Origin: Enchytraeus crypticus
Taxonomy: Eukaryota > Annelida > Clitellata > Enchytraeida > Enchytraeidae
Direction: 5' to 3'
Length of the DNA: 64,000 nt
NCBI GenBank assembly: GCA_905160935.1
Contig: CAJHZI010000431.1
Location: 2,008,001-2,072,000 of the forward strand
Positions 1 to 37,504 of this stretch are shown here, piece by piece. The notes below the pieces were generated by a model. That model was given only the letters and a program-made list of their open reading frames with translations. It was not told the DNA's origin and searched no databases. The translations under genes were made by a program, and so were the position numbers. Numbering within the stretch: the stretch's first letter is position 1; each line of letters starts with the position of its first letter.

Positions 1-7
1 ATGTACA

Positions 8-2848
8 ATGGAAAGGGTGGATTTGAAGACTGAGGAAATTACATCGTCTGACGCCCCTTTTCTTTCAAAAACTGAAATAATTTTACCATCCACAGATACC
101 GCAGAGGTGTATGAAAAGACTAAACGTAAAATGCTAGAGTCAATGGCTAATTTTCAGATGCGGGGTAGTAATTGGAGATTTCGCAGAGTGATGAAATTAG
201 AAATAAATACTGTAGAATACAAGCCACTACGAGGTAGCTCCTACATTCCTCTTCCTGAAGAATTAGCTGATAAAAAGGCTATTATAAATATGAAAAATGA
301 AGACGATCAGTGTTTCAAATGGTGTATAGCTAGAGCCTTAAATCCTGTTGAAAAAAATCCACAACGCATTGATAAACAATTAAAGAAGCAGGCTGAAGAA
401 TTTAACTGGAATGGTATTGATTTTCCGGTTAATTTGAAAGATATTGATAAATTTGAAAAGAATAACAATGTATCAATTCATGTGTTTGGATATGAAAAGC
501 TAGAGGCGTGGGCCAAAGAAGAAGAATTAATACCATTAAGGATTTCAACGTTAAGTAGTCAAAACGTAGTAGATTTGTTACTCATATCAGAAGGTGATAA
601 TAATCATTACTGCTGGATTAAGAACTTCAATAGATTGATGTCAATAGAAGGAAATCACCATGCAATGCATTACTGCAGACGATGCTTAAACGGTTTCACA
701 AGTGAAAATGCTCTTAATAATCACACTGAATATTGTTCACAACACGACGCTCAAAAAATTGTGTTACCTGACTCTGGAACGTTTATGAAATTCAATCACT
801 ATAAAAAATCTATGCGAGTACCATTCATAGTTTACGCAGATTTCGAGTCATTTATTAAACCGATTGATACACGTCAGCCGGATCCAAGCAGGTCAACCAC
901 TATCCGATACCAGAAACATACACCTAGTTCATTCTGTTATTACATCAAGTGTTTTGATGATAGCATTTACTCGCAAGCTCCAGTCACTTTTACTGCAAAG
1001 AATGATGATGACGATGTTGCTCAAATATTCTTTGACACTTTAGAGCAAAATATTAAAGAAATATACAATCAGTTCAAGTTTTCTAAACCAATGATATTCG
1101 ATGAATCTGCCGCGAAGAAATTCAAGGCCGCAAAATCATGTCATATTTGTGAAAAAGAGTTGGGTAACGATCGTGTCAGAGACCACTGTCATCTATCTGG
1201 CAAATTCCGAGGAGCAGCACACGATAAATGTAATTTACAATACAAAATTCCAAAATTCTTTCCAGTAGTTTTTCACAATTTATCAGGATACGACAGTCAC
1301 TTATTTATAAAGAAGTTGGCAGGTGGACAAATTAATTGTATTCCGTGTAACGAAGAAAAGTACATCAGTTTCTCTAGGGAATTGCTGGTTGACAAGTTTA
1401 TAAATAAAACAGGTAAAGAAGTACTAGTGAAACGAGAATTGCGGTTTATCGATAGCTTTAGATTTATGGCTTCGAGTCTTGAGAAACTTTCAAAGAATCT
1501 AAGTAAAGATCAGTGTAAGAATATTGCAAGTAAGTATTCTGGAAAGCAATTGGATTTGCTGTTGAGAAAAGGAGTTTACCCGTACGATTATGTTAGTTCG
1601 TCAGAAAGACTTGATGAAACTAAACTACCGCCAAAGGATGCTTTCTACTCAAAACTTAACGATACCAATATCAGTGATGAAGACTATAAACACGCAGAGA
1701 CTGTTTGGAAAGAGTTTGGTTGTAAAACATTTCGAGACTATCACGACTTGTACAATATATCTGATGTGCTTTTACTAGCAGATGTCTTTGAAAATTTTAG
1801 AGATGTATGTATGACCCACTATAAATTAGATCCCGCGTGGTACTACACCTCGCCAGGACTAGCTTGGGATGCTGCGTTAAGATTAACTAAAGTTGAACTC
1901 CAATTGTTGAGCGATTACGATATGCTGCTGATGATTAAGCACGGAATAAGAGGTGGTGTAAGCACTATTTCAAACCGATATTCAAAAGCTAATAATAAAT
2001 ACATGGATGGGAATTTTAACGTTAATGATCCTTCCAAATTTATCAAATACCTGGATTCGAATAACCTTTATGGCTACTCGATGAGTAAGCCCCTACCCAC
2101 ACACGGGTTCGAATGGATGACAGAAAAAGAACTGGAGAACTGGAAAGAAATGAAGTGTATCCTCGAAGTTGACTTGGAATATCCTGCAGCGCTGCACGAC
2201 CTGCATAATGACTATCCTTTAGCCCCCGAAATTGTGAAAGTGAATAAAGTAGAGAAATTGATACCGAATTTGAATGATAAAACAAAGTACACATTACATT
2301 ACGAGAATTTGAAACTGTACGAAAGTATGGGACTGAAAATTACCAAAATACACAGAGGCATAAAATTTGAAGAAAGTCCATGGCTTAAAACTTACATCGA
2401 TTTAAATACACAGCTACGCACTAAGGCTGCCAACGACTTTGAGAAAGATTTCTTTAAACTAATGAACAATAGCGTTTTTGGAAAAACTATGGAGAATATT
2501 GAAAATAGGATAGATTTCAGATTGGTTGATAATAGAGAAAAGGCTGTTAAATTGGCTGCAAAGCCCTACTATGACCGAACAATGATATTTGACGAAAATC
2601 TTGTCGGCGTCCACATGAGAAAAACTAAATTGCTGTATAATAAGCCAATCTACCTAGGTATGGCAATATTGGATTTAAGTAAAACTTTAATGTACGAATT
2701 TCACTATAATTACATAAAGGAAAAATACAATGATAAAGCCAAGCTGTTGTTTACAGACACGGATTCGTTGATGTACGAAATACAGACGGAAGATTTTTAC
2801 GCAGACATATCTAATGACGTCGAACGCAGATTTGACACTAGCGATTAG
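8..2848 (+). CDS. Protein-primed family B DNA polymerase (Polinton PolB), N-terminal and catalytic part, ends at in-frame TAG
   Basis: This is the replicative polymerase of the element (DNA_pol_B_2 family), which replicates linear viral-type DNA from a protein primer. Domains seen in order: a C2H2-like finger around residues 223-244; the exonuclease I motif YADFES near 275-281; an endonuclease-VII-like cluster CxxC...DHCH...CN near 374-411; the ExoII motif FHNLSGYDSHLF; polymerase motif A DSNNLYGYS near 683; motif B KLMNNSVFGK near 815-825; motif C TDTDS near 916. All catalytic residues are therefore present. The first ATG in frame is at 8, but the true start is probably left of the window. 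A TAG at 2846-2848 interrupts the frame where relatives have an aromatic residue before Pro. The same frame continues to 3238. Confidence 0.93.
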   Translation: MERVDLKTEEITSSDAPFLSKTEIILPSTDTAEVYEKTKRKMLESMANFQMRGSNWRFRRVMKLEINTVEYKPLRGSSYIPLPEELADKKAIINMKNEDDQCFKWCIARALNPVEKNPQRIDKQLKKQAEEFNWNGIDFPVNLKDIDKFEKNNNVSIHVFGYEKLEAWAKEEELIPLRISTLSSQNVVDLLLISEGDNNHYCWIKNFNRLMSIEGNHHAMHYCRRCLNGFTSENALNNHTEYCSQHDAQKIVLPDSGTFMKFNHYKKSMRVPFIVYADFESFIKPIDTRQPDPSRSTTIRYQKHTPSSFCYYIKCFDDSIYSQAPVTFTAKNDDDDVAQIFFDTLEQNIKEIYNQFKFSKPMIFDESAAKKFKAAKSCHICEKELGNDRVRDHCHLSGKFRGAAHDKCNLQYKIPKFFPVVFHNLSGYDSHLFIKKLAGGQINCIPCNEEKYISFSRELLVDKFINKTGKEVLVKRELRFIDSFRFMASSLEKLSKNLSKDQCKNIASKYSGKQLDLLLRKGVYPYDYVSSSERLDETKLPPKDAFYSKLNDTNISDEDYKHAETVWKEFGCKTFRDYHDLYNISDVLLLADVFENFRDVCMTHYKLDPAWYYTSPGLAWDAALRLTKVELQLLSDYDMLLMIKHGIRGGVSTISNRYSKANNKYMDGNFNVNDPSKFIKYLDSNNLYGYSMSKPLPTHGFEWMTEKELENWKEMKCILEVDLEYPAALHDLHNDYPLAPEIVKVNKVEKLIPNLNDKTKYTLHYENLKLYESMGLKITKIHRGIKFEESPWLKTYIDLNTQLRTKAANDFEKDFFKLMNNSVFGKTMENIENRIDFRLVDNREKAVKLAAKPYYDRTMIFDENLVGVHMRKTKLLYNKPIYLGMAILDLSKTLMYEFHYNYIKEKYNDKAKLLFTDTDSLMYEIQTEDFYADISNDVERRFDTSD

Positions 2849-3238
2849 CCGAGAGTTCATCCATCAGGCATTACGACTGGAGTTAACAAGAAAGTCATTG
2901 GAATGTTTAAAGACGAAGCTTGTGGAAAGGAAATTGAAGAATTTGTTGGATTGAGAGCAAAGTTGTACTCTTACAAATTAGCAGATGAGGAGCACAAAAA
3001 ACATAAAGGTGTCAAGAAGAATGTTGTTGAGAGGACAATAGCACATGATGATTACAGAGATTGTCTGTTTGAGAAAAATTACCATTCTAGAAGCATGAAC
3101 GTTATTAGATCACGCTTGCACGATGTCTATACTGAGGAAGTCAATAAAGTTGCTCTCAGCGCAGATGACGATAAGCGAGTAATCATGGACGATGGCGTGC
3201 ACACTCTAGCTTACGGACATTATAGCTTAAATATATAA
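2849..3238 (+). CDS. C-terminal part of PolB, same frame, downstream of the TAG
   Basis: This continues the polymerase frame without an indel. It begins just after the TAG with the conserved HPSG-x-TGVNKKVIGMFKDE region and runs through EFVGLRAKLYSYK to the stop at 3236-3238, about 129 residues. It corresponds to the end of the palm and the thumb region of Polinton polymerases. The first ATG in this part is at 2903, but reinitiation there would not give a working enzyme. The single stop is either a nonsense mutation in this copy or a readthrough codon. I favour mutation, because no known readthrough context follows the TAG. Confidence 0.85.
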   Translation, partial: PRVHPSGITTGVNKKVIGMFKDEACGKEIEEFVGLRAKLYSYKLADEEHKKHKGVKKNVVERTIAHDDYRDCLFEKNYHSRSMNVIRSRLHDVYTEEVNKVALSADDDKRVIMDDGVHTLAYGHYSLNI

Positions 3239-3322
3239 AACATATTTTTATGGATAAAGTTTGCCCCCCTCGTGAGGGGGGGGGCGGACATTATAGCTTA
3301 AATATATAAAACATATTTTTAT
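3214..3322. repeat. 38-bp direct repeat flanking a G/C hairpin
   Basis: Positions 3214-3251 and 3285-3322 are identical 38-bp copies that include the last codons and stop of PolB. The 33-bp spacer contains a C6/G6 foldback (around 3263-3283) with the loop TCGTGA. It looks like a small duplication around an inserted hairpin at the PolB 3' end. Confidence 0.85.
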
Positions 3323-3325
3323 TAA

Positions 3326-3355
3326 TATTTTCAAACCACATTTGGTTTGAAAATA
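3326..3355. terminator. Perfect 13-bp stem-loop between convergent genes
   Basis: Arms 3326-3338 and 3343-3355 are perfect inverted complements with a CATT loop. It lies between the 3' ends of PolB (+) and the OB-like gene (-), so a bidirectional 3'-end or terminator role is plausible. That role is inferred. Confidence 0.5.
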
Positions 3356-3360
3356 ATTCA

Positions 3361-3693
3361 TTAAAACCAAGCAACTTTAGGATCATCTTTGTCTGTATTA
3401 AACCCATCAATCTCTGCATATAGATGTCCTGTGTATTTTCCGGAATTGATTTCTCTTACTGTAAACTCAAATCTTTTAGGCTTCTTTACCAAATTCTCCT
3501 CTTTAATGTATTCATTAATCTTATTTGTGGACCAAACTTTTATATGGTCGTGGTCCTCGTTTTGCACAAGATACAGAATATATGATTTACCGTAATTTGT
3601 GTTTATGGATTTCAGTCCTTTGACAATATATCTTTCTCCAGCATGAAGCTTTTGAAACTCGAGTACTTCCGAGTTTACGTTTTTAGTTGCCAT
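3361..3693 (-). CDS. Small OB-fold-like protein, possible single-strand DNA-binding protein
   Basis: The ORF encodes 110 residues. The pattern GERYIVKGLKSINTNYGKS followed by alternating hydrophobic segments, YILYLV and IKVWSTNKINEYI, resembles the small beta-barrel proteins found beside polymerase in Polinton-like elements. I infer an ssDNA-binding or replication role from this resemblance and from its place next to PolB and integrase. No catalytic motif is visible. The start ATG is immediately preceded by TATATAAA, the start motif shared by most genes of the element. It is convergent with PolB. Confidence 0.6.
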   Translation of the reverse strand: MATKNVNSEVLEFQKLHAGERYIVKGLKSINTNYGKSYILYLVQNEDHDHIKVWSTNKINEYIKEENLVKKPKRFEFTVREINSGKYTGHLYAEIDGFNTDKDDPKVAWF

Positions 3694-3730
3694 TTTATAT
3701 AGTCCAAGAAAATATTTAAATAGAAATTTT

Positions 3731-4717
3731 TTATGAATCTAAATTTTGTAAATTAGATATGGGAATCCATTCATTAAATTTCTTGTTGTAACCCACCCAT
3801 TTAACCAAGGCATGTTCCACACCTTTAATCTTTTTCCGTTGTAGAACCTTCTCAATTCTATAAGTTTCTTGATTTGTTTTCTGCAATTCTTCTGCGTAAA
3901 AACCTCCTTCTATCTCTTCGCCTAACGAATCTGTCAATTTATAAGTGATCGGGGATGTGTATTGCACTTTGGATATCTTGTACACCGCTTCAGACCAATT
4001 GGGTAGGAATCCCTTTTCAAATACACCCTTAATCCGACTAATTCTAACTCTATCGCCAACCTCAAATTTTCGATTCGTTTCCAAATTTCTATACTTCCTA
4101 CTGTTAATTATAAATGCTTCGTTTTCCTTTTTACTCGCCTCAATTGGAGTCATTTTTACAGTCGAATGTTTCGTGTTGTTATACTCTGCAATTAAATCGT
4201 CAATCATATCAATCCAATTTCTCGTATTTTCCGCAGTAAATCTTTTCCACATCTTTTCCTTGATACTTCTATTGAATCGTTCGACGACTGCTGATTTATG
4301 TTCACCAAATGTAGAGTATCTATTGATATCAAGTTTCTTTAACCAATCATCCAAGTTTTTGTTGTAAAATTCCTTACCCTGATCAATCCATAAATGTTTA
4401 GGCTGTCTTCCCGACGATGACACTATTTGTTTAAATGCCTCTGCAGTTGTTTCACCTCTCTTGTCTTTCAACGGAATGCTCTACGCATACTTTGAAAACA
4501 CATCAATGACGTTAAGCATGTATCTGTAGCCCTTATTTACTCTACTCCACTCCTGCATTTCGATTAAATCTGCTCCCCATATCTCATCAACTTCAAACAC
4601 GTGAACTTGTCGTCTTGTAAATTTTCTGCGAATCGGTTTGTGTAATTCTCTAGCCAATTCTTCAAAGGGTCCAACGTTTCGCTTCAAACCTCTTTCTTCG
4701 CTGGACCCCTCTATTCG
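3731..4717 (-). CDS. RVE-superfamily integrase with C-terminal chromodomain, entered by -1 frameshift, one in-frame TAG
   Basis: This is the DDE integrase that inserts Polinton DNA into host chromosomes. Catalytic residues are visible: D in WGADLIEM, D in LWIDQGKEF, E in VVERFNRSIKEKMW. A C-terminal chromodomain follows (YRIEKVL...LVKWVGY...FNEWI, about the last 45 residues), which is known to guide integration in such elements. The frame is open from 4717 but has no ATG near its natural N-terminus; TTG at 4687 is the only near start. It lies in the -1 frame of the PLA2 ORF, whose last codons hold a slippery heptamer, so I infer expression as a PLA2-integrase fusion. A TAG at 4481-4483 sits where relatives have Trp (TGG). 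Downstream of it the frame is open to the stop at 3731. Confidence 0.88.
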
Positions 4718-4723
4718 TTTTTT
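4665..4723 (-). promoter_or_regulatory. Putative programmed -1 ribosomal frameshift signal (PLA2 to integrase)
   Basis: Seen: the heptamer A AAA AAC at 4723-4717, in the correct phase of the PLA2 frame (last base of TCA, then AAA, AAC), two codons before its TAG stop. A 6-nt spacer follows. Then a stem pairs 4710-4702 with 4665-4673, nine pairs with one G-U and a perfect GGGTCCA/TGGACCC core; the loop is about 28 nt. Shifting -1 enters exactly the integrase frame with no stop in between. Known: A AAA AAC is the retroviral type of slippery site (MMTV, HTLV). Confidence 0.8.
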
Positions 4724-5241
4724 GACTCAACACCAAGACCAAACTTTGCCTTATTTTTCATGATGTGGTATACAAATCGAGCCATATTTCTTTGTGCACT
4801 ATCAAATCTTGAATCATTAGCAATTTCGTATGCTCGATGAGCCAAAGCTTCGTCGCTTATATTTCTGCTCGCTGTATCGGTATTTGCAGTATAAAACTGG
4901 TCGTGCAATTTACACATTCCATCCAACTCATTTATACCCTGATAACCTTCGCGATTTCTCAGTTCGTACTTTGTGCCTGGACCGCAGTACGAATACTTGT
5001 TGAGATTATTAAATGAACCGTTAGGTACGTACTCTCCACGTCTGGCAGGTAAATGTAGTTCTCCAACTGTATTTCCAACTGCCGATAACACATTATTAAA
5101 CACACCCTGACCCGAGACAAATTTTGACTTTTTACTTCCACACACTCCACAAATAGCAAATTGCTGTTTTCTATTATTAGCAGTTAACCTTTCCTGCGTC
5201 TGTGTAGAATCAGTTTTCCTTTTACATTTCAAGCAGTACAT
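4711..5241 (-). CDS. Zinc-ribbon protein with parvovirus-type phospholipase A2 domain
   Basis: The ORF encodes 176 residues. The N-terminus carries two CxxC pairs (MYCLKC near 3-6 and CGVCG near 31-34), forming a zinc ribbon. The middle carries a secretory/parvoviral PLA2 signature: the calcium loop YCGPGT (about 83-88) and the catalytic LDGMCKLHDQFY with the His-Asp pair (about 106-117). In parvoviruses and adintoviruses this enzyme is virion-associated and helps breach the endosomal membrane; I infer the same here. Its 3' end contains the slippery site, so a fraction of product is predicted to extend into integrase. The start is preceded by TTTAAAA rather than the fuller TATA form. Its upstream neighbour on the same strand is the major capsid gene. 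Confidence 0.87.
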   Translation of the reverse strand: MYCLKCKRKTDSTQTQERLTANNRKQQFAICGVCGSKKSKFVSGQGVFNNVLSAVGNTVGELHLPARRGEYVPNGSFNNLNKYSYCGPGTKYELRNREGYQGINELDGMCKLHDQFYTANTDTASRNISDEALAHRAYEIANDSRFDSAQRNMARFVYHIMKNKAKFGLGVESKNE

Positions 5242-5294
5242 TTTTAAATTACATTATAAAATTTTATAACGTAATTTTCATATTAGAAAACTTA

Positions 5295-6674
5295 TTAATC
5301 TATAATAATCGGAGTCTGACCATCGGATGTTAGGTACATCACTCTATCGGAAAGTATCGTAACATACATATGAGTATGTTCTGGAACATTTTGACTAAAT
5401 TTAAAATTAAGTTTCATATTCATAACATCAGTTTTGATTCTTTCACTCTGATGTCTTACATCAAAGACTACAAGTGGAAATAGCTTTTTGTAATTCATCA
5501 TATCGATCTGTGTACCTCCAATTAAATGATTAAAACCAAAGTGTTCCTTCTTAAATTCATCCGCCATAGCGCAGAAATCTACATAGTCATTTGTAGCAAA
5601 GTTTATTCTCGGTTCATCTGCAGGATATCTCTGATCATTCAATTCAACAAAAGCACTAGTCAAGTTAAGGTGATCAAACACAGCTGGATTTTGTTCCTGT
5701 GTTCTTGATTTGTCAGTTTGAAATCCAACAATTATCCATCTAGGCTTTTTACTTCCAGCGTCTCTATTGATCATCCATTCAAATTCCTGCACGTTGTGCG
5801 TAACTATAGTATGTTGATCAGTTCTTCTGCTAAAACTTACTGGAATTTTCCTTTTACTTACAACATACTCTCGCAGTGAAGTTATCATTTCAACTGACGG
5901 TTTTATTCTTGGTACCATCCACCTAATATCCGTTAGTGAAACTTTACCTTCAAAAACGTTATTCGCTTTATGAATAGTCGAATTATTAATCACTCTAGTG
6001 AGTCGCAACGTATGTCGCAAATTGTAAAGTACTTTGTTATAATCGGAAAATCCAAATAGATGCGAAAATGGAATGTTGAATGAAAATTGACCTGGCGCAT
6101 CGTTGTTCATTAGAAGTTGTCGGCGAATCGCAAATCCTTCATTGTAATCTGGATTTTCTTGCGGTGTAAAATGATTGGCAACAATGGCTGCGCCTCCTGC
6201 AACTGCTGGAGATTGTCTATATTTAGAGGACACTGCACCGACGTTTGTGTCCTTTCTCCAACATTGATTCAATCCCGCGCTGCTATTGAAATCGTCAGGA
6301 TAAGACAAATAACCCAACATTGATGTAGTCTGTCCTGGAAAACGTAATATTTCAATTGATTTACCTCCTAGAATATATTCAATATTTTCAAAGAAGTAAG
6401 GAATAGCATTATTTATCAAAGCTATTTGAGCTGTTCTATCAAAAGCATCGCCATTGTCATTTCGAACTAATCTTCCCTTTATTTTAAGGAAGCTTTTAGC
6501 TGGGTTGTAATACGAATCACTTGCAGGAATATCAATTTCAATAACATGACCATTAGAATCAAAGTCGGCTTTAGTCTGTGAAATAAAAGACGAGTATTGA
6601 CAACTTTCTACACTATTGTCTACAATAATTGACGTTGGTTGAGAGAATATTTCGTTTGGCAATTCAGTTTCCAT
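5295..6674 (-). CDS. Major capsid protein, double jelly-roll (hexon-like) type
   Basis: The ORF encodes 459 residues and matches the Polinton/adintovirus capsid protein family known from many animal genomes. The N-terminal region shows the typical IEIDIPASDSYYNPAKSFLKIKGRLV pattern in two pieces (residues about 45-70), then NNAIPYFFENIEYILGGKSIE, as in the F54H12.2-type proteins. Length is normal for this branch. It would form the icosahedral shell with the penton protein encoded at 7011-7742. The ATG is directly preceded by TATATATAAA, the strongest example of the element's start motif. The reading frame is intact. Confidence 0.85.
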   Translation of the reverse strand: METELPNEIFSQPTSIIVDNSVESCQYSSFISQTKADFDSNGHVIEIDIPASDSYYNPAKSFLKIKGRLVRNDNGDAFDRTAQIALINNAIPYFFENIEYILGGKSIEILRFPGQTTSMLGYLSYPDDFNSSAGLNQCWRKDTNVGAVSSKYRQSPAVAGGAAIVANHFTPQENPDYNEGFAIRRQLLMNNDAPGQFSFNIPFSHLFGFSDYNKVLYNLRHTLRLTRVINNSTIHKANNVFEGKVSLTDIRWMVPRIKPSVEMITSLREYVVSKRKIPVSFSRRTDQHTIVTHNVQEFEWMINRDAGSKKPRWIIVGFQTDKSRTQEQNPAVFDHLNLTSAFVELNDQRYPADEPRINFATNDYVDFCAMADEFKKEHFGFNHLIGGTQIDMMNYKKLFPLVVFDVRHQSERIKTDVMNMKLNFKFSQNVPEHTHMYVTILSDRVMYLTSDGQTPIIID

Positions 6675-6690
6675 TTTATATATATAATAA
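6675..6690 (-). promoter_or_regulatory. TATATATAAAATG-type promoter/start motif of the capsid gene
   Basis: A TATA-like run ends directly at the ATG. Similar TAAAATG or TAAAAATG contexts precede the starts at 3693, 6989, 7742, 8637, 9483, 10506, 10538, 12187 and 12301. A late-promoter role like that of TAAATG in large DNA viruses is inferred. Confidence 0.6.
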
Positions 6691-6701
6691 TAATTTTTAA
6701 A

Positions 6702-6989
6702 CTAAAATCGTTTTAATCCACTGCCCGATTTTTGTAGTTGTTCTAGTATCTGTTCCGATTCTGGAGTTAGACGACTATTTTTGCTTGCTATCTTTCTAAT
6801 TAATGCTTTGCCGCCCTCTGTCAAACCGAATGCAGCAATATCACCTACTGCTCCTAACATTGGCTTTGCAATTAAATCTTTATTCTGATAGACGTACGAA
6901 CCCATATCTTTCAGTGTATCGACAAATCCCCGTCCATGTACCAGAGTTTGTTTTGAACTGTATGCTTTGCATTTCTCTTTGACAATCAT
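6702..6989 (-). CDS. Small basic virion-type protein, C-terminal GSGLKRF
   Basis: The ORF encodes 95 residues and sits between the major capsid and penton genes. It is basic, with a central hydrophobic stretch (IAKPMLGAVGDIAAFGLTEG) and a C-terminus ending SGSGLKRF. Small proteins with Gly-rich, hydrophobic ends are common among the minor virion proteins of Polinton-like viruses, and I infer such a role from position and composition only. The start has AGTAAAATG. I do not recognise a specific family. Confidence 0.6.
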   Translation of the reverse strand: MIVKEKCKAYSSKQTLVHGRGFVDTLKDMGSYVYQNKDLIAKPMLGAVGDIAAFGLTEGGKALIRKIASKNSRLTPESEQILEQLQKSGSGLKRF

Positions 6990-7010
6990 TTTACTAAATA
7001 CAATATATTT

Positions 7011-7742
7011 TTAATTAGATTTTTCTCTAATTAGTAATACAATAGTAAGTCTTTCACCCATCAGATCGATAAGTTTGTTGTCTTGATCGGTCAGCCGCAG
7101 TTTTATACTATCAATTTCATGCCTATTAACTGTTGGTAAAAATATCAATTCAGGAGTAGGATTCTCTATTATCTTATAGCCTGGATTTACTCTTTGGGTG
7201 AATGTATGAATAACATTAGATCTTTTACCATTAAGATAGTTACCAATAGCAATATCGCAATGGACTTGTATCGAATTGACTTTTTCTATATCAATTATGT
7301 TGGGAGACAGATGAGTTCCATTTGACAGTTTTTCATCGGTGAATCCTAGAGTAGACCCTAATGAATTGTCAATTCCAAAGTCAACCATGTACTTTTCGTG
7401 TGATATAGTCAAAATTGTTTTGAAAATTAAATGACTTATATTTATGTAATATTTTTCATTAATTGTATCGTAGTCACCGTTTTCTCGCATTTCCCTTTGA
7501 ATCGTAGCGTTAATATCTTTTAATTCGTAAGCACCTTTTGAAAGCGTGATTATTTTCCAAGTACTTCCACCGTCGGTGGAATATTTAAATTTATTGTTGA
7601 CTTCCGTGATGTTAGGAATTGAATTGTACGTCATCAGAGATATAAATGCTACTTCATACTTTTTCTTAGGATCCAAACTTATTGGAGGGTGCAGATATGT
7701 AGTAAAATCTGTTGACGTGCTCGACTGAGTTAATTTCACCAT
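7011..7742 (-). CDS. Penton / minor capsid protein, single jelly-roll type
   Basis: I choose the ATG at 7742 (MVKLTQSS...), giving 243 residues. It follows TATAAAAAAA and does not overlap the upstream gene, whereas an earlier in-frame ATG at 7841 would overlap that gene by over 80 nt. The pattern ISLDPKKKYEVAFISLMTYNSIPNI, then KGAYELKDINATIQREMR, and the C-terminal beta strands ending LTIVLLIREK are typical of Polinton penton proteins, which cap the five-fold vertices. It lies next to the major capsid protein, as in related elements. Confidence 0.82.
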   Translation of the reverse strand: MVKLTQSSTSTDFTTYLHPPISLDPKKKYEVAFISLMTYNSIPNITEVNNKFKYSTDGGSTWKIITLSKGAYELKDINATIQREMRENGDYDTINEKYYINISHLIFKTILTISHEKYMVDFGIDNSLGSTLGFTDEKLSNGTHLSPNIIDIEKVNSIQVHCDIAIGNYLNGKRSNVIHTFTQRVNPGYKIIENPTPELIFLPTVNRHEIDSIKLRLTDQDNKLIDLMGERLTIVLLIREKSN

Positions 7743-7758
7743 TTTTTTTATAGCAGGA

Positions 7759-8637
7759 TTAAATTTTAAACTGGATATTTGAGAGAATTTCGAAATGGTT
7801 TTTATATATATCATCATATTTCCCCTTGGTGATTGCACCAATTCTTAGCAGTTCATCCAATATACCAACTGCGGTATTGTATGCTCCATTGTTTCCAGCT
7901 TCTAGAGCTGCAAGATTTTCCACCAGCAGATGGACCAATTGATCTGGATTTTCATAGTGTACAACTTGATCTCCTTTTGGTCTACCTCGTCCACGTTTTT
8001 GTTTACCTGCAGGCATTACAAGTTTTCTCTTCTTCTTAAGTCCTTCTCCGACGAGTTCACTCCCTGCTTTTACCTTAGTCAATATGCTCTTGTATTTTTC
8101 CAGTGTTTTCTGTTGAGACTCGCATATCGTTTTCTCAGCTGGAGTCTTTTTACTGTTGTTTCCTAAAAACTGCCCTATTCGTCTATTATGCGTTTGAATC
8201 TCCTTTAATGTTGCTTCAATTTCATTATTTTTATAGACTTCACTTGGAAGTTTCAGGTCGAGTAGATCTAGATTCTCTCGATCACTTTCATTGAGATTCC
8301 TGTCTAAATTAATAATTAAAGGATCCCTCCTTGGTGTGGATTCACGTTCAGGAATAGGTGAATCATAAAATGGCATTGCCTGTATAGCCTCTCTCTGATC
8401 ATTTGAACGCATCAATTGATTAGTAAAGGGAACTAAAATATCACTCAAGTTTTGTTTGTTGTCGACAATCTTTTGTTCTAGAATTTGAGCCGTTTCCTTT
8501 GTAGTGTCGATTAACGGTTTGAATAACTTTGCTTGACTCTCATATGACTGTTGATTGCCTAGTTTCTCATTCAGAAACATTTGTTTGACTTCGTTCTTGG
8601 CCTTGTTATACCGGTTAATATCAAACTCCACCATCAT
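7759..8637 (-). CDS. Minor virion protein with AT-hook, function unknown
   Basis: The ORF encodes 292 residues. The N-terminal half is helical and charged with coiled-coil character (IDTTKETAQILEQKIVDNKQ). Around 195-222 there is a basic segment with an AT-hook core, KRGRGRPKG, and a conserved C-terminal block (DQLVHLLVENLAALEAGNNG...ILDELLRIGAI) that I recall from Polinton-type genomes without a proven function. LVGEG near 195 fits the adenain cleavage pattern (M/I/L)xGx-G, suggesting processing by the element's protease. A DNA-binding core or minor capsid role is inferred. The ATG follows TAATAAA. Confidence 0.72.
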   Translation of the reverse strand: MMVEFDINRYNKAKNEVKQMFLNEKLGNQQSYESQAKLFKPLIDTTKETAQILEQKIVDNKQNLSDILVPFTNQLMRSNDQREAIQAMPFYDSPIPERESTPRRDPLIINLDRNLNESDRENLDLLDLKLPSEVYKNNEIEATLKEIQTHNRRIGQFLGNNSKKTPAEKTICESQQKTLEKYKSILTKVKAGSELVGEGLKKKRKLVMPAGKQKRGRGRPKGDQVVHYENPDQLVHLLVENLAALEAGNNGAYNTAVGILDELLRIGAITKGKYDDIYKNHFEILSNIQFKI

Positions 8638-8654
8638 TTTATTACATACATATA

Positions 8655-8790
8655 TTTATTTATTAGGTATTTTTAGGTGTATTATTAGGTATTTTTATGT
8701 ATTATTAGGTATTTTTATGTATTATTAGGTATTTTTAGATATTATTAGGTATTATTAGGTACTATTAGGTATTATTAGATATTTTTCAGG
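8655..8790. repeat. TTATTAGGTATTTTTA-type minisatellite at the ATPase 3' end
   Basis: About six imperfect units of roughly 20 bp (TTATTAGGTATTTTTATGTA), shortening to TATTAGGTAT units, fill the space between the 292-residue gene and the ATPase. They also encode the last codons and stop of the ATPase. Confidence 0.85.
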
Positions 8791-9483
8791 TATGTACATT
8801 GCATTGTAATTTAACAAATATCTACCACATTCAGGTTCCTCCCACAGATTTACAACAACGTAACCGTGCTTATTCATCCAAGCTTCATTACATATTTTTT
8901 CAAACTCTTCAAATGACATATCACCACTTACGTGAGTGTCATAGAAATATTTAAGCGATTTTTTATCGTGTCGAAATAGAATAAAAATATTAGCATTTTG
9001 TCGAATTCCATGTTTTTTCAGCTTATGAATGCTCTGACATAAATAGAATACATTCGCATTATTATGTCGACCTTGACAGAAGTAATCTGTCATATCTTTC
9101 TGATTTTCATTCATGACGTCATCAAATATTACAATATGTGTTTTATTTCTATCGAGTTCAGAAGGGTGAACTATTCCATCATCTGGGTTGTGAAAAGTAA
9201 CAATATCTTGACTTGTTTTAGACTTCTTCCTTGATTCATCATTACAATCCCGAAGGAATTTATACGCGTCTTGATCGGGTGTCATTGTGTACACCATCAT
9301 ATCATCATAGTACACTAATTTTTTCATAATGAAGTTCATCATTAGATTTGTCTTGCCACAACCGGTGCTGCCAGCTAGTATCATAAATATATTTTTAGGA
9401 AATATATCGTGATGCTTGCTCTCATAGTTGCTACCGTAAATTTTTTGATAAATTTTCGAATAGTTAGTATTCAAGTCTATCAT
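8755..9483 (-). CDS. Packaging ATPase, FtsK/HerA (A32-like) family
   Basis: The ORF encodes 242 residues. Walker A GSTGCGKTN lies at about 38-46 and Walker B THIVIFDD at about 114-121, followed by NENQKDMTDYFCQGRHNNANVFYLCQS in the sensor region, as in genome-packaging ATPases of Polintons, virophages and large DNA viruses. It would pump DNA into the preformed capsid. The length is usual for the family and the frame is intact. The start follows CATAAAA. The C-terminal codons run into the minisatellite, which may have altered the last few residues. Confidence 0.92.
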   Translation of the reverse strand: MIDLNTNYSKIYQKIYGSNYESKHHDIFPKNIFMILAGSTGCGKTNLMMNFIMKKLVYYDDMMVYTMTPDQDAYKFLRDCNDESRKKSKTSQDIVTFHNPDDGIVHPSELDRNKTHIVIFDDVMNENQKDMTDYFCQGRHNNANVFYLCQSIHKLKKHGIRQNANIFILFRHDKKSLKYFYDTHVSGDMSFEEFEKICNEAWMNKHGYVVVNLWEEPECGRYLLNYNAMYIPEKYLIIPNST

Positions 9484-9499
9484 TTTTATGTAGTAGTTA

Positions 9500-9955
9500 T
9501 TATTTTAAATTGTTTCTTTCGTATAATTCATCTAATACATCCTTGAATAGACTCCCATTGTTCAGTTTATATAGCACGTAAATACAGTAATGACCGCAGA
9601 TGACTTCGTTTGGTGCTTGAATTTTAAAAGTGTTAAAATAATTTTCCTTTCCTTTACAATAATGTTGAACTTCTGATGGAGGTATGAAGCCGTAACTATC
9701 AAAATATAGACATTTGCCATTCTTACTATAAAGAAATACCCAATGGGTCCCGTTCCCTTCGCTGTCATCAATATTAAGAATTAAACTTTCGTTATTACTA
9801 ACTGATCCCTTTAGCTCATCTCGCATGAATACACCTTTGAAATTTTTTACATTTAGCTCTTTACATTTTTTTATTATATCAAAGTTGCTTAGCGGTTTAA
9901 GAGATTTGAATGAGTTTAAAAATTGGGGGAAGTTTATGCCTCCCCCTGTCTTTCT
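9500..9955 (-). CDS. Adenain-like cysteine protease (PRO), entered by -1 frameshift
   Basis: This is a maturation protease of the adenovirus C5 type. With the internal Met at 9826 as 1, the catalytic residues are His28 (GTHWV), Asp43 (YFDS), Gln70 (KIQ) and Cys76 (ICGHYC). The first in-frame ATG at 9826 falls inside the conserved GVF-M-RDEL block, too late for a complete enzyme: about 43 further residues of recognisable protease N-terminus, including LSNFDIIKKC, lie upstream in the same frame with no ATG. That frame opens exactly at a slippery site near the end of the upstream ORF. I infer translation as a fusion with the pVI-like protein. It also lacks the TAAAATG start motif of its neighbours. 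Confidence 0.88.
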   Translation of the reverse strand, partial: RKTGGGINFPQFLNSFKSLKPLSNFDIIKKCKELNVKNFKGVFMRDELKGSVSNNESLILNIDDSEGNGTHWVFLYSKNGKCLYFDSYGFIPPSEVQHYCKGKENYFNTFKIQAPNEVICGHYCIYVLYKLNNGSLFKDVLDELYERNNLK

Positions 9956-9961
9956 AAAAAA
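9925..9961 (-). promoter_or_regulatory. Putative programmed -1 ribosomal frameshift signal (pVI-like protein to protease)
   Basis: Seen: the heptamer T TTT TTA at 9961-9955, in the correct phase of the upstream ORF (GTT TTT TTA). An 8-nt spacer follows, then a stem of eight pairs (9946-9939 with 9925-9932; GGGGGAGG against CTTCCCCC, one G-U) with a 6-nt loop. The zero frame stops six codons after the heptamer, while the -1 frame runs straight into protease. Known: U UUU UUA is the HIV-1 gag-pol slippery sequence. Confidence 0.8.
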
Positions 9962-10506
9962 ACTCCTGATCCACCTCTTTCCAAATACAATCCATTACCC
10001 CACTGAGCTCCTTTCAAATTCTTGACGCATCCACCGAGTCCAAATTTCTTCAACGCATTTGATAGCGTTTTACCTATAACGGGGATTGGAGCTATTGCGT
10101 CGCTGATTAAGCCTGCGCCGAGTTGTTGCTTGGTTATGTTTTCCAATTCTTGATTATGTCTCTTCAATTCATTTGTCTGTCTAGTCGAATTCACTGCCGA
10201 GCTAATTCCACCTGCCAATCCACCTATAGCTCCCACGATGGCGGGAATGGCTGCTGCCAACAACGGCAGAAATCTTCCATTCTTTTCCATGTACTTTAAT
10301 TGTGCTCTACTCAGACACAATTCTATTCCAGATGTAGCCTTTTTAATTTTATTAATTTGAGTTTGGGTGAGAGGAAGATTCGTATTACCCGACAAATTCT
10401 TTTTTAATATTCGTATTTTAACCTCTCTATCATGATCGCACGCGCTCTTTAGTTTTTGGACCTGACCTTTAGTCAACGTTACACCGTAGTTTGTATACTT
10501 TGACAT
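9934..10506 (-). CDS. pVI-like hydrophobic virion protein upstream of protease
   Basis: The ORF encodes 190 residues. The N-terminus has a motif repeated among Polinton/adintovirus proteins (YGVTLTKGQVQKLK...LPLTQTQINKIKKA). It is followed by a strongly hydrophobic Ala/Gly-rich helix (about 79-106) and a second one (GAGLISDAIAPIPVIGKTL), ending with GNGLYLERGGSG repeats. LAGGI fits an adenain cleavage pattern. Hydrophobic or amphipathic content and adjacency to protease suggest a counterpart of adenovirus pVI, a membrane-lytic cement protein and protease cofactor; this is inference. The ATG follows TATATAAAA. A -1 slippery site near the end links it to protease. Confidence 0.72.
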   Translation of the reverse strand: MSKYTNYGVTLTKGQVQKLKSACDHDREVKIRILKKNLSGNTNLPLTQTQINKIKKATSGIELCLSRAQLKYMEKNGRFLPLLAAAIPAIVGAIGGLAGGISSAVNSTRQTNELKRHNQELENITKQQLGAGLISDAIAPIPVIGKTLSNALKKFGLGGCVKNLKGAQWGNGLYLERGGSGVFLERQGEA

Positions 10507-10537
10507 TTTTATATAACATTTAAATTTTTATTATAAA
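10507..10537. promoter_or_regulatory. Divergent promoter between pVI-like and fibre-like genes
   Basis: Only 31 bp separate two divergent ATGs, and each reads TATA-like sequence directly into its ATG (TATATAAAAATG on minus, ATTATAAAATG on plus). This places the core promoter within tens of bases of the start codon for both genes. Confidence 0.6.
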
Positions 10538-11734
10538 ATGAGTACTATATCGAAAACTGGTGGCAAATCGCATTCAACAACTGGTGATTTGATGGAGCAT
10601 GTAGACTCAGTTTTCAGACCAATTGTCAAGCTTGTTGATAGACTCGACAGTACAAAAGTTGACAAATCTGGAGGAGATATCACTGGAGACATTAATATGA
10701 GCAACAATAGAATTTTCAATGTTAAGCAACCTCCAGAAAGTGATTTGGATGTCGTTACAAAGGGGTACTGCGATCGTTATGTTAACCAATTTGGACAAAA
10801 TTTAAGAGTAGGTATCCTAAAAGAAGTAGAACAAAACGTAGTTGCTAATGACATTGCTCTACAAAAAAATATTCATACGAAACTCAGTGTGAATGGTGGT
10901 TCAATGAATGGAGATGTTGATATGAGCAACAATAGAATTTTCAATGTTAAGCAACCTCCAGAAAGTGATTTGGATGTCGTTACAAAGAGGTACTGCGATA
11001 GTTTTGTTAACGAATTTGGACAAAATTTAAGATTAGATATCTTAAAGGATGTAGAACGAGATGTTGTTGCTAATGACATTGCTCTACAAAAAAATATTGA
11101 TATGAAACTCAGTGTTAATGGTGGTTCATTGAATGGAGATGTTGATATGAAGCATAATTTAATTTTTAATGTTGGTTTCCCCAGTCAAACATTTGATGTG
11201 GTAAACAAGAAGTATCTACAGATTGCTAGCATGAAAGATAATGTTGATTTTAAGAAATTAATGGCTATTTGTTTTCATCTTTTAGCTATTATGACAAAAT
11301 ATTCTGGGGAACTAAGCGAAATCAATAATTACAGGAAAGAATTTCAAAGAAAATATACATATTTGGAAAATATTAACTCGATACATATGAAATTGTATAA
11401 TGGCGAAGAAATTCATTCTGACGTGGGAGGAATTCTTTCACCGTTTACTACTGATTTGAAATGTTTACTTTTAACAATAATTGAAAAACTACCGAGAAAT
11501 ATGTTTAGTGACTTGGAAATAACTCTAGGTCGCGCTAATTTAATAGCAACACCTGAAGAGGATACACCTTTATTGAAAATTAGGCAATTTATTTCAAAAC
11601 TTGTAAGAGATCTAGATCCAGATCGAAAGAAATCAGACTTGAAATTAATATTACGAAAATATTTAACGTTTGTTGGTTTAGGATTTCATTACGTTTCAGA
11701 TTCTCTACTAATGAGGTTTGTGATGGAAGTGTAG
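10538..11734 (+). CDS. Fibre-like repeat protein resembling phage tail fibres
   Basis: The ORF encodes 398 residues. Three repeats (about 46-120, 121-195, 196-235) start with GGD-x-TGD-x-NM-x-NNRIFNV-x-x-P and end with DVVTK-x-YCD, the pattern of short repeats in phage tail-fibre and baseplate proteins (GGxMTGxLxM...I..LxxP...DAATKxYVD). Repeats one and two are almost identical at DNA level over a 225-bp period. Between the repeats are heptad-like segments consistent with a trimeric shaft. The C-terminal 160 residues are unique and could form the head. I infer a host-attachment fibre. It is transcribed opposite to the capsid genes from a divergent TATAAAATG start. Confidence 0.72.
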   Translation: MSTISKTGGKSHSTTGDLMEHVDSVFRPIVKLVDRLDSTKVDKSGGDITGDINMSNNRIFNVKQPPESDLDVVTKGYCDRYVNQFGQNLRVGILKEVEQNVVANDIALQKNIHTKLSVNGGSMNGDVDMSNNRIFNVKQPPESDLDVVTKRYCDSFVNEFGQNLRLDILKDVERDVVANDIALQKNIDMKLSVNGGSLNGDVDMKHNLIFNVGFPSQTFDVVNKKYLQIASMKDNVDFKKLMAICFHLLAIMTKYSGELSEINNYRKEFQRKYTYLENINSIHMKLYNGEEIHSDVGGILSPFTTDLKCLLLTIIEKLPRNMFSDLEITLGRANLIATPEEDTPLLKIRQFISKLVRDLDPDRKKSDLKLILRKYLTFVGLGFHYVSDSLLMRFVMEV

Positions 11735-11782
11735 CCGTAAATTGCGATATTTAAATTCGTTAATAAATGTATTAACAAATTT

Positions 11783-12187
11783 TTATGTAAATTCAGAAAT
11801 AATCTGATTATAGGCTGCCTCAGCAAGATTTCCGTTACAGGAGACAACAAAGTCAAATCTTTCATTAAGTTTATTTAGTTTTTCAATTTCTGTATTTAGT
11901 TTATTACTTTTAGCTTGAAAATTAAATTTATTGGCGAAGGCTGTCAATATACCGCTTGAAGTGGATAACACTATTATAGCAACGGGTGGAATTACAACAG
12001 CTGTAGCAGTTGCAGCTAGCACTGCGGAAATTACGATCGAAGCCACCGCGGTAGTGTAGGAAAGTGTTTTTACAATCTTTCGCTTTTTCTTTAGTTTTTT
12101 AACAACTGTTTGCCTTTCTTCAAGCTTTCTAATTAAAAATGCTTTCAGTTTACTTGAAAGCGTAGTACCATCAACGGTGTCTAACAT
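11783..12187 (-). CDS. Small membrane protein with long hydrophobic hairpin
   Basis: I choose the ATG at 12187 (MLDTVDG...), preceded by AATAAA as in the element's other genes, rather than the in-frame ATG at 12223. The product is about 134 residues. A basic N-terminal part (KKLKKKRKIVK) is followed by some 45 hydrophobic residues with a Pro-Pro turn (SIVISAVLAATATAVVIPP then VAIIVLSTSSGIL), probably two membrane spans, then a charged coiled-coil segment (NKLNTEIEKLNKLNERF). I do not recognise a family. A role in membrane interaction of the virion is possible. Confidence 0.6.
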   Translation of the reverse strand: MLDTVDGTTLSSKLKAFLIRKLEERQTVVKKLKKKRKIVKTLSYTTAVASIVISAVLAATATAVVIPPVAIIVLSTSSGILTAFANKFNFQAKSNKLNTEIEKLNKLNERFDFVVSCNGNLAEAAYNQIISEFT

Positions 12188-12300
12188 TTTATTATTTGCA
12201 ATTATTATTTTAACATAAAACATTTACAAACGAGAAAATTATTTGTTTATTGTTTGTAAATTTTGAATTTTATTTAAATATTTTTTCTTACATATATAAA

Positions 12301-12789
12301 ATGAAATACTCGGCCGCCGAATTGAGACAAATGTTGATCGATGCTGAAATCACACCAGCTCTACGTGCTGGAAAAACAGTGTTGTTGTTTATGACTTTTG
12401 AAAATGGACTTTTGAAGAGAGAAGAAGTGTTTCCTCCAAAGGATGAAGATACGACAACAAGAAAGAGAGGAAGACCTAGAAAATATCCACTAAAAGAGGT
12501 TGATCCACAAAATGAAGAAGACAAACCTAGAAGAGCAAGAGGAAGACCAAGAAAATATCCACTAAAAGAGGTTCAACCAAAAAAGATTATAGACCAGAGG
12601 CATGAGTACTTGAGAGGTATAAGAAATAACCCTAAACCTGTCAGATATGAAAATAATGAAACTGGAGAAGTTAAAGAATTTAAGTCTTTATATGAAGCTG
12701 TTAAAAAAACTAAACGCAGTGTATTATTCTTTAAAAGAAACAATGGAGAGATTGTTAATGGATGTCATAAATATACAATCATTGAATGA
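12301..12789 (+). CDS. AT-hook DNA-binding protein with C-terminal nuclease-associated-type motif
   Basis: I choose the ATG at 12301, directly after CATATATAAA, not the in-frame ATG at 12250. The product is 162 residues. Two AT-hooks occur as near-identical repeats, RKRGRPRKYPLKEV (about 55-68) and RARGRPRKYPLKEV (about 79-92), implying minor-groove binding to A+T-rich DNA. The C-terminus (GEVKEFKSLYEAVKKTKRS...NGCHKYTI) resembles the small helix-turn-helix repeats (NUMOD/IENR type) seen beside phage and viral homing nucleases; this is a weak resemblance. It may organise or regulate the element's A+T-rich DNA. Confidence 0.7.
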   Translation: MKYSAAELRQMLIDAEITPALRAGKTVLLFMTFENGLLKREEVFPPKDEDTTTRKRGRPRKYPLKEVDPQNEEDKPRRARGRPRKYPLKEVQPKKIIDQRHEYLRGIRNNPKPVRYENNETGEVKEFKSLYEAVKKTKRSVLFFKRNNGEIVNGCHKYTIIE

Positions 12790-13336
12790 ATGCTTCAATA
12801 GTATATTTACTATTAAGACAGGCTGTGACCATAATTGTGCTGATGAAACAATGGTTATCATACTTTCAGTACATACGTTGATGACAAGGCTAATATATAT
12901 ATAAGCTTAGGTATCAAGGCTAAAGATGCCTGTTGAAATGATTTTGTCTCTGCCTTGTGGATGAAATGATGTGAATTGAAATCGTTTTTGTCCTCGTGAG
13001 CTGTGGGCGTGCTTGATTTTACGCTTGTGTGTTAGATTATTGATAGGCAAGGCTATGCTTCAATTGCAATGGTGTAAATTTTAAGGCAGAAAATAGAAAT
13101 GAGCAAGACTCAAGGCATGTCTGTGCTTAATATTCATGGAACATTTATGCATCAAGGCTAAAATAGAATTTAGCTATGTTTTAAGGCTATTCTATTTTAG
13201 CCTTGAAATGATTAACGTTCATCTCAGTATGCTTAATCAAGGCAGGGCAAGGCTAAAAAGGAAATTTAGCTAGGTTTTAATCTTAGGTTGTGCTTAAAAA
13301 TCATAATGTGCCAGCCCCCCAATAATCCTACTACTT
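12790..13336. repeat. AAGGCTA-rich region beyond the last Polinton gene, with an 18-bp inverted repeat
   Basis: There is no gene here. The motif CAAGGCTAA or AAGGCT recurs at least eight times. A perfect 18-bp inverted repeat lies at 13152-13169 and 13189-13206 (CAAGGCTAAAATAGAAT core) with a 19-nt loop. It is probably part of, or next to, the element's right terminal repeat. Confidence 0.5.
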
Positions 13337-13587
13337 GTGTTGATGTTGTTTAAATTTTGATTTTGCTTAAATCGTTGTGTATATAGCTTGCATTGTAACT
13401 AAGCTTTTTTATGAACGCCTCGTTGCGCAGTGGTGAAGAGCTTGCTTCTTGCATGAGAGGTCGCGGGTTCGAGACTGCGTAGCGATGTGAGTTTTTCTAT
13501 TCCAAGAGGCGAATAAAAACCTATCGTGTACACATGGTGGTATCAGGTCGATGGATAGCCGACCTTAATGTTCCATTTCCCATCTAG
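13337..13587 (+). repeat. tRNA-derived SINE, family 1, copy 1
   Basis: The copy has a box-A-like TGCGCAGTGG and a box-B-like GGGTTCGAGACT followed by a conserved body. The same 250-bp sequence recurs at 27184-27435, including about 75 bp upstream of the tRNA-like part. It marks host DNA to the right of the Polinton. Confidence 0.7.
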
Positions 13588-13984
13588 ATCCCTCCGTGTC
13601 GACCCTGAATAGGGATAAACTGTACGCTAAAAAGACGTTTTTTGTAATGATGCTTTTTATATTTGAAAGACTCTGCTTTCATCGTTGTTTTATCTGCCAT
13701 CCTTTTGCATTGTGACCTATCCAAGCGACTAATTTTAAATTAGACTTGACTTTGTTTCTCTCTATCACTCTCTCTCTCTCTCTCTCTCTTATATTGCACT
13801 GCTTAACCGATATCCATGCCATTTAACTCTTCCAATAAATTCTATCCTCAGCTTTCCTACTATCTCATATACGAGTTTGTTATCAAATCATCTCACATCC
13901 TGCATCCTGCTCTACCTCTAACTATTTTCTCTGTCATTCTTCCTTCTATAACATGCTTTAGCAAATCACCTATAATATGTCCTA
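13588..13984. other. No gene seen
   Basis: A+T-rich sequence with a short (TC)n run near 13766-13790. No coding or repeat identity recognised. Confidence 0.4.
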
Positions 13985-14690
13985 TCTAGCTTTTCTTGCT
14001 ATTCCATAACATATTTATTAACTGTATACCGACTCTCTCAAGAACTTCTTCGTTTATAATTTTGAGACACCAACTCTAAGTCTTTCTCCATAACCACATT
14101 AAATGCCTCCAGTTTCCTGATATTCTCTTTCTTTAACGTTACCGTTTTACTTCCGTAGCACTACGCGAGTGTCGTTCACACAAACGTTTTCACAATCTTT
14201 AACTTTTTGTTTATCATAAAAGCTTCTGTAAGAAGTTTTCCACTTTCCGAAAGTATTCTTTGACTGTTCAGTTCTTTATTTACATTTTGTTTCACACTTT
14301 CCTAATCTCACCATCCGTAATGGTGTGGCCCAGATATTTATAGCTTCTTACCTGTTCTAAGCGAATGTTTTTCAATGATATATTTGCATCTCTGCAACTC
14401 CTAGATAGTCTCATCACCTTTGTTTTTTATATTAATCTTCATGGTATACCTCAATGCCGTATCATTAAAACATCCGTAATCTTTTGCAACTTTACTTCAC
14501 TACTAGTCAGGATGCCTTGATCATCTACAAACCTCATATCTTTCAGTAATTTACCTCCAGTAACTATTCCTTCCTCAATATCTTCAATCGTCTCAATCAT
14601 TATAGCCTCTCCAATAAAGGTTGAATATATTGGTGAAATGCTACATCATTGTTCTACTCCGCCCCATTTCACTTCCTCTGAAAACTTGCT
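13985..14690 (-). pseudogene. LINE reverse transcriptase remnant, minus strand
   Basis: Conceptual reading of the minus strand in shifting frames gives an RT segment: YSTFIGEAIMIE, then RFVDDQGILTSS (the F-x-DD catalytic box with Val), then SLKNIRLEQVRSYKYLGHTITDGEI. This order is typical of RTE/R1-like non-LTR retrotransposons. Several stops and frameshifts show it is dead. Confidence 0.65.
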
Positions 14691-15184
14691 GAATTTTTGC
14701 TCTTGAATTCTGATTCATGTACAAATTTTAAGCCACACCTGCGTGTCCTACAAATCTGATTATACGTCACTGATCGAGCCTGTGCCTGTAGCCTATAAAA
14801 AAACTACCGGTATTGTCTGTTAGTCGCTTGTTTAACCTTTTGTTTTGTTTAAATTGATCTCTCTTTGGTGTTAGATTATTTTCAGATCCACCTTGTTGTT
14901 ATTTAATACATATTACAAGTAGGTCTTTTTATCTCGAGTTATTTGCTATTTTATATCTTTGTATGTATACTGTAGTAATTTTACCAATGTTGTGTCCGGG
15001 TTGCTTAAGAATTGACCGACCTTAGACTGTACTTGTCGCAAATGGCGTCAAAGCACTAAGATCCAAACCAACCTCAGAAAGGGTGTTCGGTTGTTGAGAG
15101 CCTAGGCTCCAGAAGTAGCTACAAAATTTTCTAAAGCGAATGGAAAAGTTGCTCTCCCCACAGAGAGGAGTGGAAAAAATCAAA

Positions 15185-15282
15185 GAGCTGGTAAAGCTAA
15201 GGTTTACGTCAGTTTCCTCTCTCGAAAGCGATGTCAGTGACGGTCGCGAACCCAGGATTTGAATCCCGCACAAACTGATTCG
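15185..15282 (-). repeat. tRNA-derived SINE, family 2, truncated copy
   Basis: The tail (AGCTGGTAAAGCTAAGG) and body up to the box B region of family 2 are present; the box A end is missing. Confidence 0.7.
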
Positions 15283-15366
15283 CAAAAAGAAGATCTATTC
15301 ATATCCCGACCCTAGCTAAACTGGGATTCAAGGGAAGAAGATAAAGACGAAGACGATGATGATGAT
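15283..15366 (+). repeat. LINE 3' end with (GAT)n tail
   Basis: The sequence matches the 3' ends of the fragments at 19290-19368 and 23577-23640 (CCCGACCCTAGCTAAACTGG, then GGGAAGA, then (GAT)n). It is a 5'-truncated insertion. Confidence 0.65.
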
Positions 15367-15399
15367 AACTATGTATATTTTTGAAAAAGTATGATATTG

Positions 15400-37244: not shown

Positions 37245-37504
37245 CACCGTATATATATTTATATATACGTTTTGAATTAAGATATAAAATAACATATATA
37301 TGATAACATTTAGTATATTTATATCTTCCAATTCCTGTGTTATTTTGGTGATATTTTTATTTTGTGTATATTTGTATAAATTTCTATAATAAATGTCTTC
37401 TGCTTATATCTCAATTTACAGATATTTAAACAGTATTATAAACAGTATTATGACACAGAAATATGTGAACGTTTCGAGGTTGATTGTATATTTTTCTGCG
37501 AAGG

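Follow-up and report, generated by a model that had tools for sequence, protein, structure and literature searches.

The first 13 kb of the analysed window (64,000 nucleotides of contig CAJHZI010000431.1 of Enchytraeus crypticus) comprise most of an animal Polinton. In the direction of transcription, on the minus strand, the genes are ORF197, an adenain-like protease, an ATPase, a 298-aa ORF, a probable minor capsid protein, a 102-aa ORF, the major capsid protein (MCP), a phospholipase A2-like (PLA2) ORF, an integrase and a 125-aa ORF. The features on which the argument depends are as follows.

2..3238, plus strand: PolB-like frame in two open stretches, one from the window edge to 2845 and one continuing to 3238, with a single stop at 2846-2848 between them
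3731..4480, minus strand: C-terminal piece of the integrase, with the remaining rve core and a chromodomain (Chromo E 1.6e-7; rve E 3.1e-5)
4481..4483, minus strand: in-frame TAG interrupting the integrase, read from the sequence
4484..4726, minus strand: N-terminal piece of the integrase, in the -1 frame, with no ATG before 4558 (over 60 aa it is 52% identical to its counterpart in a distant relative, L046)
4664..4711, minus strand: possible stimulatory hairpin, predicted (13-bp stem, 22-nt loop, 5-nt spacer, -19.9 kcal/mol)
4711..5241, minus strand: PLA2 ORF of 176 aa, with DUF5679 (E 2.1e-9) and a phospholipase A2-like domain (Phospholip_A2_4, E 5.2e-7)
4717..4723, minus strand: slippery heptamer A AAA AAC; the stop-to-stop PLA2 frame has 181 codons (stop counted), and the heptamer is at codon 177
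5295..6674, minus strand: major capsid protein, double jelly roll (Pfam PF21738, E 4.7e-43)
7011..7742, minus strand: probable minor capsid protein, so named by position, with no credible family match
8755..9483, minus strand: packaging ATPase (Pfam Pox_A32, E 1.3e-5)
9500..9994, minus strand: adenain-like protease ORF, in the -1 frame of ORF197, with no ATG before 9826; the domain begins near residue 33 (about 9898)
9925..9946, minus strand: second possible stimulatory hairpin, predicted (8-bp GC-rich stem pairing 9946-9939 with 9932-9925, 6-nt loop, 8-nt spacer)
9934..10506, minus strand: ORF197, carrier protein with a hydrophobic segment and a weak likeness to adenovirus core protein X (Adeno_PX, E 0.018, below cut-off)
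9955..9961, minus strand: second slippery heptamer T TTT TTA, in phase, at codon 189 of 198 of ORF197 (stop counted)

The gene content is that of a Polinton/Maverick (eupolintovirus). An rve integrase with a chromodomain is present in two pieces with the TAG between them, the chromodomain scoring above the Pfam cut-off and the rve domain of the partial C-terminal piece below it (24.6 bits), and the double jelly-roll MCP and packaging ATPase are accompanied by the adenain-like protease, which is assigned from weak sequence matches and a modest model. The plus-strand frame may encode the protein-primed DNA polymerase B, judging from PolB-like motifs spotted by eye. The sole Pfam match of 2-2845 is Endonuclease_7 (E 9.5e-5, below cut-off), the PHROGs match in the frame is also endonuclease VII, with the endonuclease VII-like stretch at residues 377-412 of the piece, and a search for relatives of solved structure up to E 1 returned none. 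To describe this region as a fragmented PolB would be wrong, as it is a single frame with one stop that runs off the window start, and the left end of the element therefore lies outside the window. Among the 25 longest of 41 pairs of inverted repeats in 1-16000 (longest arms 44 nt, 70%) there are no long terminal inverted repeats. Because the integrase has an in-frame TAG and the PolB-like frame has one stop, the copy must be considered lightly decayed; the remaining ORFs of the element are open, and the copy is a fossil, if a young-looking one. Of the ORFs treated as genes, the protease and the integrase lack an AAAATG start, which the 11 others all have. At 11 ORF starts within 3693-12301 the context is AT-rich, nearly uniform and ends in AAAATG, sometimes TATATAAAATG; it is probably a common promoter or leader motif.

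The PLA2 ORF joins a DUF5679 part, zinc-ribbon-like by eye, to a phospholipase domain in which what we take to be the Ca-loop (YCGPGT) and the HD dyad are visible. Close to its end, AAAAAAC (4723-4717) is read xxA AAA AAC in the PLA2 frame, which is the slippery phase given in the initial annotation; one codon (GAA), and not the two claimed there, precedes the TAG at 4713-4711. Relative to PLA2 the integrase frame is indeed -1, as had been proposed. A TGA lies shortly before the heptamer and the frame opens after it, at 4726, which limits the stretch shared by the two frames to 16 nt; the heptamer falls within this overlap. It is likewise correct that the integrase has no usable ATG, the first possible in-frame one, at 4558, being inside the catalytic core. 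Codon usage favours the integrase frame for the N-terminal piece, whose match to L046 begins at residue 22; Pfam returned no family for this piece. However, the integrase frame is not open from the heptamer onward as had been thought: the TAG at 4483-4481 follows after 81 codons, inside the rve core, and the integrase of the present copy consequently cannot be made whole.

A stem downstream of this heptamer is indeed predicted, and it is longer than originally described (13 bp after a 5-nt spacer, as opposed to 9 bp after 6 nt), with 13 contiguous pairs, three of them G.U, formed between 4711-4699 and 4676-4664. Measured from 5 nt after the heptamer, its stability gave dinucleotide-shuffle p values of 0.002, 0.004 and 0.01 for lengths of 50, 60 and 80 nt, respectively (500 shuffles each), and 60-nt windows placed at six offsets of 0 to 8 past the heptamer gave p of 0 to 0.035 (200 shuffles). 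Equally stable 60-nt windows make up 0.2% of the 2,588 minus-strand windows of the element. A pseudoknot downstream of the stem was discarded, the 6-bp pairing between loop and downstream sequence being at the level of chance (30% of 2,000 letter shuffles). Readthrough of the PLA2 stop codon was also rejected, because the zero frame runs only 8 codons beyond the TAG. No frameshift family was among the Rfam matches up to E 5 in 1-14000, and four sub-threshold matches of other kinds were taken as chance.

A second signal of like design, which is new here and had no mention in the initial annotation, lies between ORF197 and the protease. These two frames overlap by 61 nt, and T TTT TTA is inside the overlap. 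The stem that follows has a predicted energy of -15.5 kcal/mol, and in each of six 40-nt windows 0 of 200 shuffles were as stable. The first protease ATG (9826) falls behind residues that are already shared with relatives, as does that of the integrase (4558). Since this junction was absent from the initial annotation it constitutes a fairly independent test, whereas the probability computed for the PLA2/integrase junction itself is inflated by its having been picked for its looks. The evidence thus supports the earlier proposal that a -1 signal links PLA2 to integrase, and the second signal strengthens it, with the reservation that the integrase here is cut by a stop. Three features expected of programmed frameshifting were found at both junctions: an X XXY YYZ heptamer in zero-frame phase within an ORF overlap, a predicted structure 5-9 nt downstream beyond chance, and a start-less downstream ORF in the -1 frame.

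The background of such motifs was estimated by scanning the 13 kb element on either strand and in any phase for heptamers, scoring for each the best stem starting 5-9 nt downstream. The best two of 134 heptamers are those at 4723 (-19.4) and 9961 (-14.0), the next being -11.8; the T run at 9961 is counted also at 9962. That these two sites would occupy the top two ranks by chance has a probability of about 1 in 8,800, with the T run treated as one site and other overlaps unmerged. What is unusual is that the element's two best sites are in phase, have the right direction, lie in ORF overlaps and precede the two start-less ORFs. A heptamer followed by a stem is by itself not rare, given that in the whole 64 kb a stem as strong as -12 follows 23 of 589 heptamers (about 4%). 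In-phase heptamers are also plentiful, the 14 frames examined containing 21. Among these, AAATTTA (3746) near the integrase end and TTTAAAA (9509) near the protease end have no -1 partner after them. The MCP ORF has no in-phase heptamer, and the probable minor capsid ORF has none close to its 3' end. Other same-strand overlaps between genes of the element have a different character: that of the 298-aa ORF with the probable minor capsid ORF (86 nt stop-to-stop) is not a -1 relation, its upstream ORF having no in-phase heptamer and the downstream AAAATG lying past the overlap, and the overlaps of integrase with the 125-aa ORF (8 nt) and of protease with ATPase (5 nt) are not -1 either, the downstream ORF having its own start.

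The main rival is random indels, whether by decay or by sequencing error, according to which an intact element would have single fused ORFs whose frame was broken, in this copy or in the assembly, by a change of one base within each homopolymer run. Both heptamers are homopolymer runs (A6 and T7), the usual places for indels, and the copy carries two nonsense changes; with nonsense changes in the integrase and the PolB-like frame it has certainly undergone some decay, and this, like the reliance on a single copy, counts against frameshifting. Nevertheless, 18 runs of at least 6 occur in the 11,827 nt of coding sequence scanned, 16 of them inside open frames, and since only two sit at a frame change, namely the two junctions, decay by random indels is not the first explanation to suggest itself. 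Random indels would explain the positions, but they would explain neither the presence of the element's two best stems at the right spacing after both runs nor the matching -1 sense of the shift at both junctions. We regard this explanation as improbable. Programmed -1 ribosomal frameshifting is the preferred reading: argued from the sites, their phases, the frames, the predicted stems and the missing starts in the one copy examined, the lineage of this element would express its start-less protease and integrase in this way, with a probability of roughly 0.78. The predicted PLA2/integrase signal, in particular, is very likely functional in the lineage.

Relatives were sought by pattern scans of viral contigs and genome contigs, which yielded 67 loci that were compared by tblastn with 11 queries from the window. 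Three of the 67 loci gave a clear match (E below 1e-10): L046 for the integrase, and the near-identical L060 and L061 for the protease. Further scans of viral contigs found no relative, the integrase piece had no match in phage records, and none of the 11 queried pieces has a second copy in the window (E up to 0.01). The integrase of L046 (38% identity; E 7e-53 for the C-terminal piece) starts at an ATG of its own and carries an additional N-terminal domain, and its ORF scores above the Pfam cut-off for both rve and chromodomain. An ATG-initiated integrase in a related intact element had been named beforehand as evidence against the frameshift, and one does exist, but only in this distant locus. 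The protease relatives, also distant, lie within a longer ORF, which in L061 is an ATG-started ORF of 229 aa. The frameshift arrangement is accordingly not universal, both the L046 integrase and the L061 protease ORF being ATG-started. L046 also invites a different explanation, in which this lineage or this copy suffered a deletion that removed the N-terminal domain, promoter and ATG of the integrase, the junction with PLA2 being accidental: the 54 residues that precede the shared region in L046 have no detectable similarity in the present element. Such a deletion would leave the heptamer, the stem and the parallel arrangement at the protease unexplained, and it is considered very unlikely.

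Codon usage bears on the stretches ahead of the first Met of each enzyme. In the integrase linker the -1 frame scores 2.0, against -1.6 and -3.2 for the other two frames, and in the protease ORF before its first Met (9898-9829) it scores 3.6, against -9.7 and -27.1. Past the stop of ORF197, the protease frame (0.17) trails the third frame (0.55), and inside the ORF197/protease overlap the ORF197 frame (0.16) is slightly above the protease frame (-0.38), the test being weak on short stretches and giving weak or no support for the protease-side linker. That the -1 frames are instead reached by splicing, a near-cognate start or termination-reinitiation is hardly credible: the host is eukaryotic and weak near-cognates can be seen by eye (TTG and ATA in the integrase linker; ATT, ATC and ATA in the protease stretch), but neither frame has an ATG near the junctions, no CTG, GTG or ACG codon was seen by eye in the -1 stretches ahead of the conserved domains, and splice signals were inspected by eye, unscored.

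Under programmed frameshifting, ribosomes translating PLA2 would pause at the 13-bp stem, slip one base back on A AAA AAC and enter the integrase frame, and ribosomes translating ORF197 would slip on T TTT TTA ahead of the GC-rich hairpin and enter the protease frame. The slippage that we infer would generate minor PLA2-integrase and ORF197-protease fusions, in which the enzymes are C-terminal extensions of upstream, probably virion, proteins. Through these fusions the enzymes would be incorporated into the particle at a constant, low proportion, perhaps to be released there by the protease, and intact relatives of the present copy would be expected to behave in the same way. On balance we lean towards a wider reading as well, that of an animal Polinton lineage with a Gag-Pro-Pol-like plan, in which two -1 signals would place protease and integrase on virion proteins as minor tails and particles of a DNA virus would carry integrase.

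In retroviral Gag-Pro-Pol, protease and integrase are reached by a -1 shift from ORFs for virion proteins. The resemblance extends to the kinds of heptamer (A AAA AAC and U UUU UUA), the short spacer, the downstream structure and an integrase of the same rve superfamily. Unlike retroviruses, the present element is DNA with a PolB-like gene and a double jelly-roll capsid, it has two separate upstream ORFs as opposed to one Gag, its protease is an adenain-like cysteine protease, and no reverse transcriptase was found among the element ORFs searched. If the proposed reading is true, retroviruses and Polintons would both combine an rve integrase with control of protein ratio by frameshifting, whether through convergence or through common history.

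Related DNA viruses offer further comparisons. In the available portion of PMC11071296, KnotInFrame predicts slippery sites in the Penton ORFs of some adintoviruses and a comparable arrangement of Hexon and Adenain. As here, these predicted sites lie near the 3' end of ORFs for virion proteins, and in one case adenain is the downstream partner (PMC11071296, same portion); in contrast, the carriers here are ORF197 and PLA2 in place of Penton and Hexon, and the integrase would be reached too. The Polintons/Mavericks Sf Maverick 1 and 2, which have PLA2-like ORFs, resemble the present element in having POLB, an rve-chromodomain integrase, ATPase, an adenain-like protease and an ORF with a PLA2 domain, and the endonuclease VII domain listed for their POLB corresponds to that found in the PolB-like frame (PMC5803895, in the text available). 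Unlike here, INT, PRO and a PLA2-containing CAP are listed for them as separate ORFs, and both occurrences of the word frameshift in the text available belong to the section on errantiviruses (PMC5803895). In the literature covered, available in part, on frameshifting, Polinton gene content, mavirus packaging and DNA viruses, no frameshifting to integrase in a Polinton was found. Within that literature the statement that such an arrangement is undescribed in Polintons holds for integrase, but it must be qualified in view of the published -1 predictions for adintovirus Penton and Hexon-Adenain (PMC11071296, as available). Translational control by -1 frameshifting is known; its proposed use twice in one Polinton, with integrase as a target, is probably new.

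According to the accessible part of PMC8097293, Maverick particles had not been observed up to 2021. If particles do carry the PLA2-integrase fusion, integrase would arrive with the genome, as may hold for the mavirus particle according to the part of a review that was available (PMC6723459). The proposed arrangement would also provide a directly testable rule of expression that accounts for protease and integrase genes seemingly lacking a start, and it would warn annotators that seeming frameshift decay in Polintons can be function.

Several further observations were made on the element and its surroundings. ORF405 (10679-11128, plus strand) contains two tandem 225-nt units that are 91% alike. 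By eye it looks similar to a segment that is repeated within a 527-aa ORF of L061, and it is perhaps a fibre protein. A 43-nt stretch occurs twice (95% alike) at 3214-3327, flanking a segment of C/G runs between the end of the PolB-like frame and the end of the 125-aa ORF, and an array of 10-bp tandem repeats (GTATTATTAG-like) at 8659-8798 lies directly upstream of the 298-aa ORF. The L046 contig, WPAE01000166.1, is filed under an Ignavibacteria MAG and carries a Polinton-type integrase with chromodomain; it is probably misbinned eukaryotic or viral DNA. Elsewhere in the window, two ORFs were recognised by eye, one for a CR1-like reverse transcriptase (28290-29489, plus strand) and one similar to an organic anion transporter (37484-39025, plus strand); both are consistent with an animal host.
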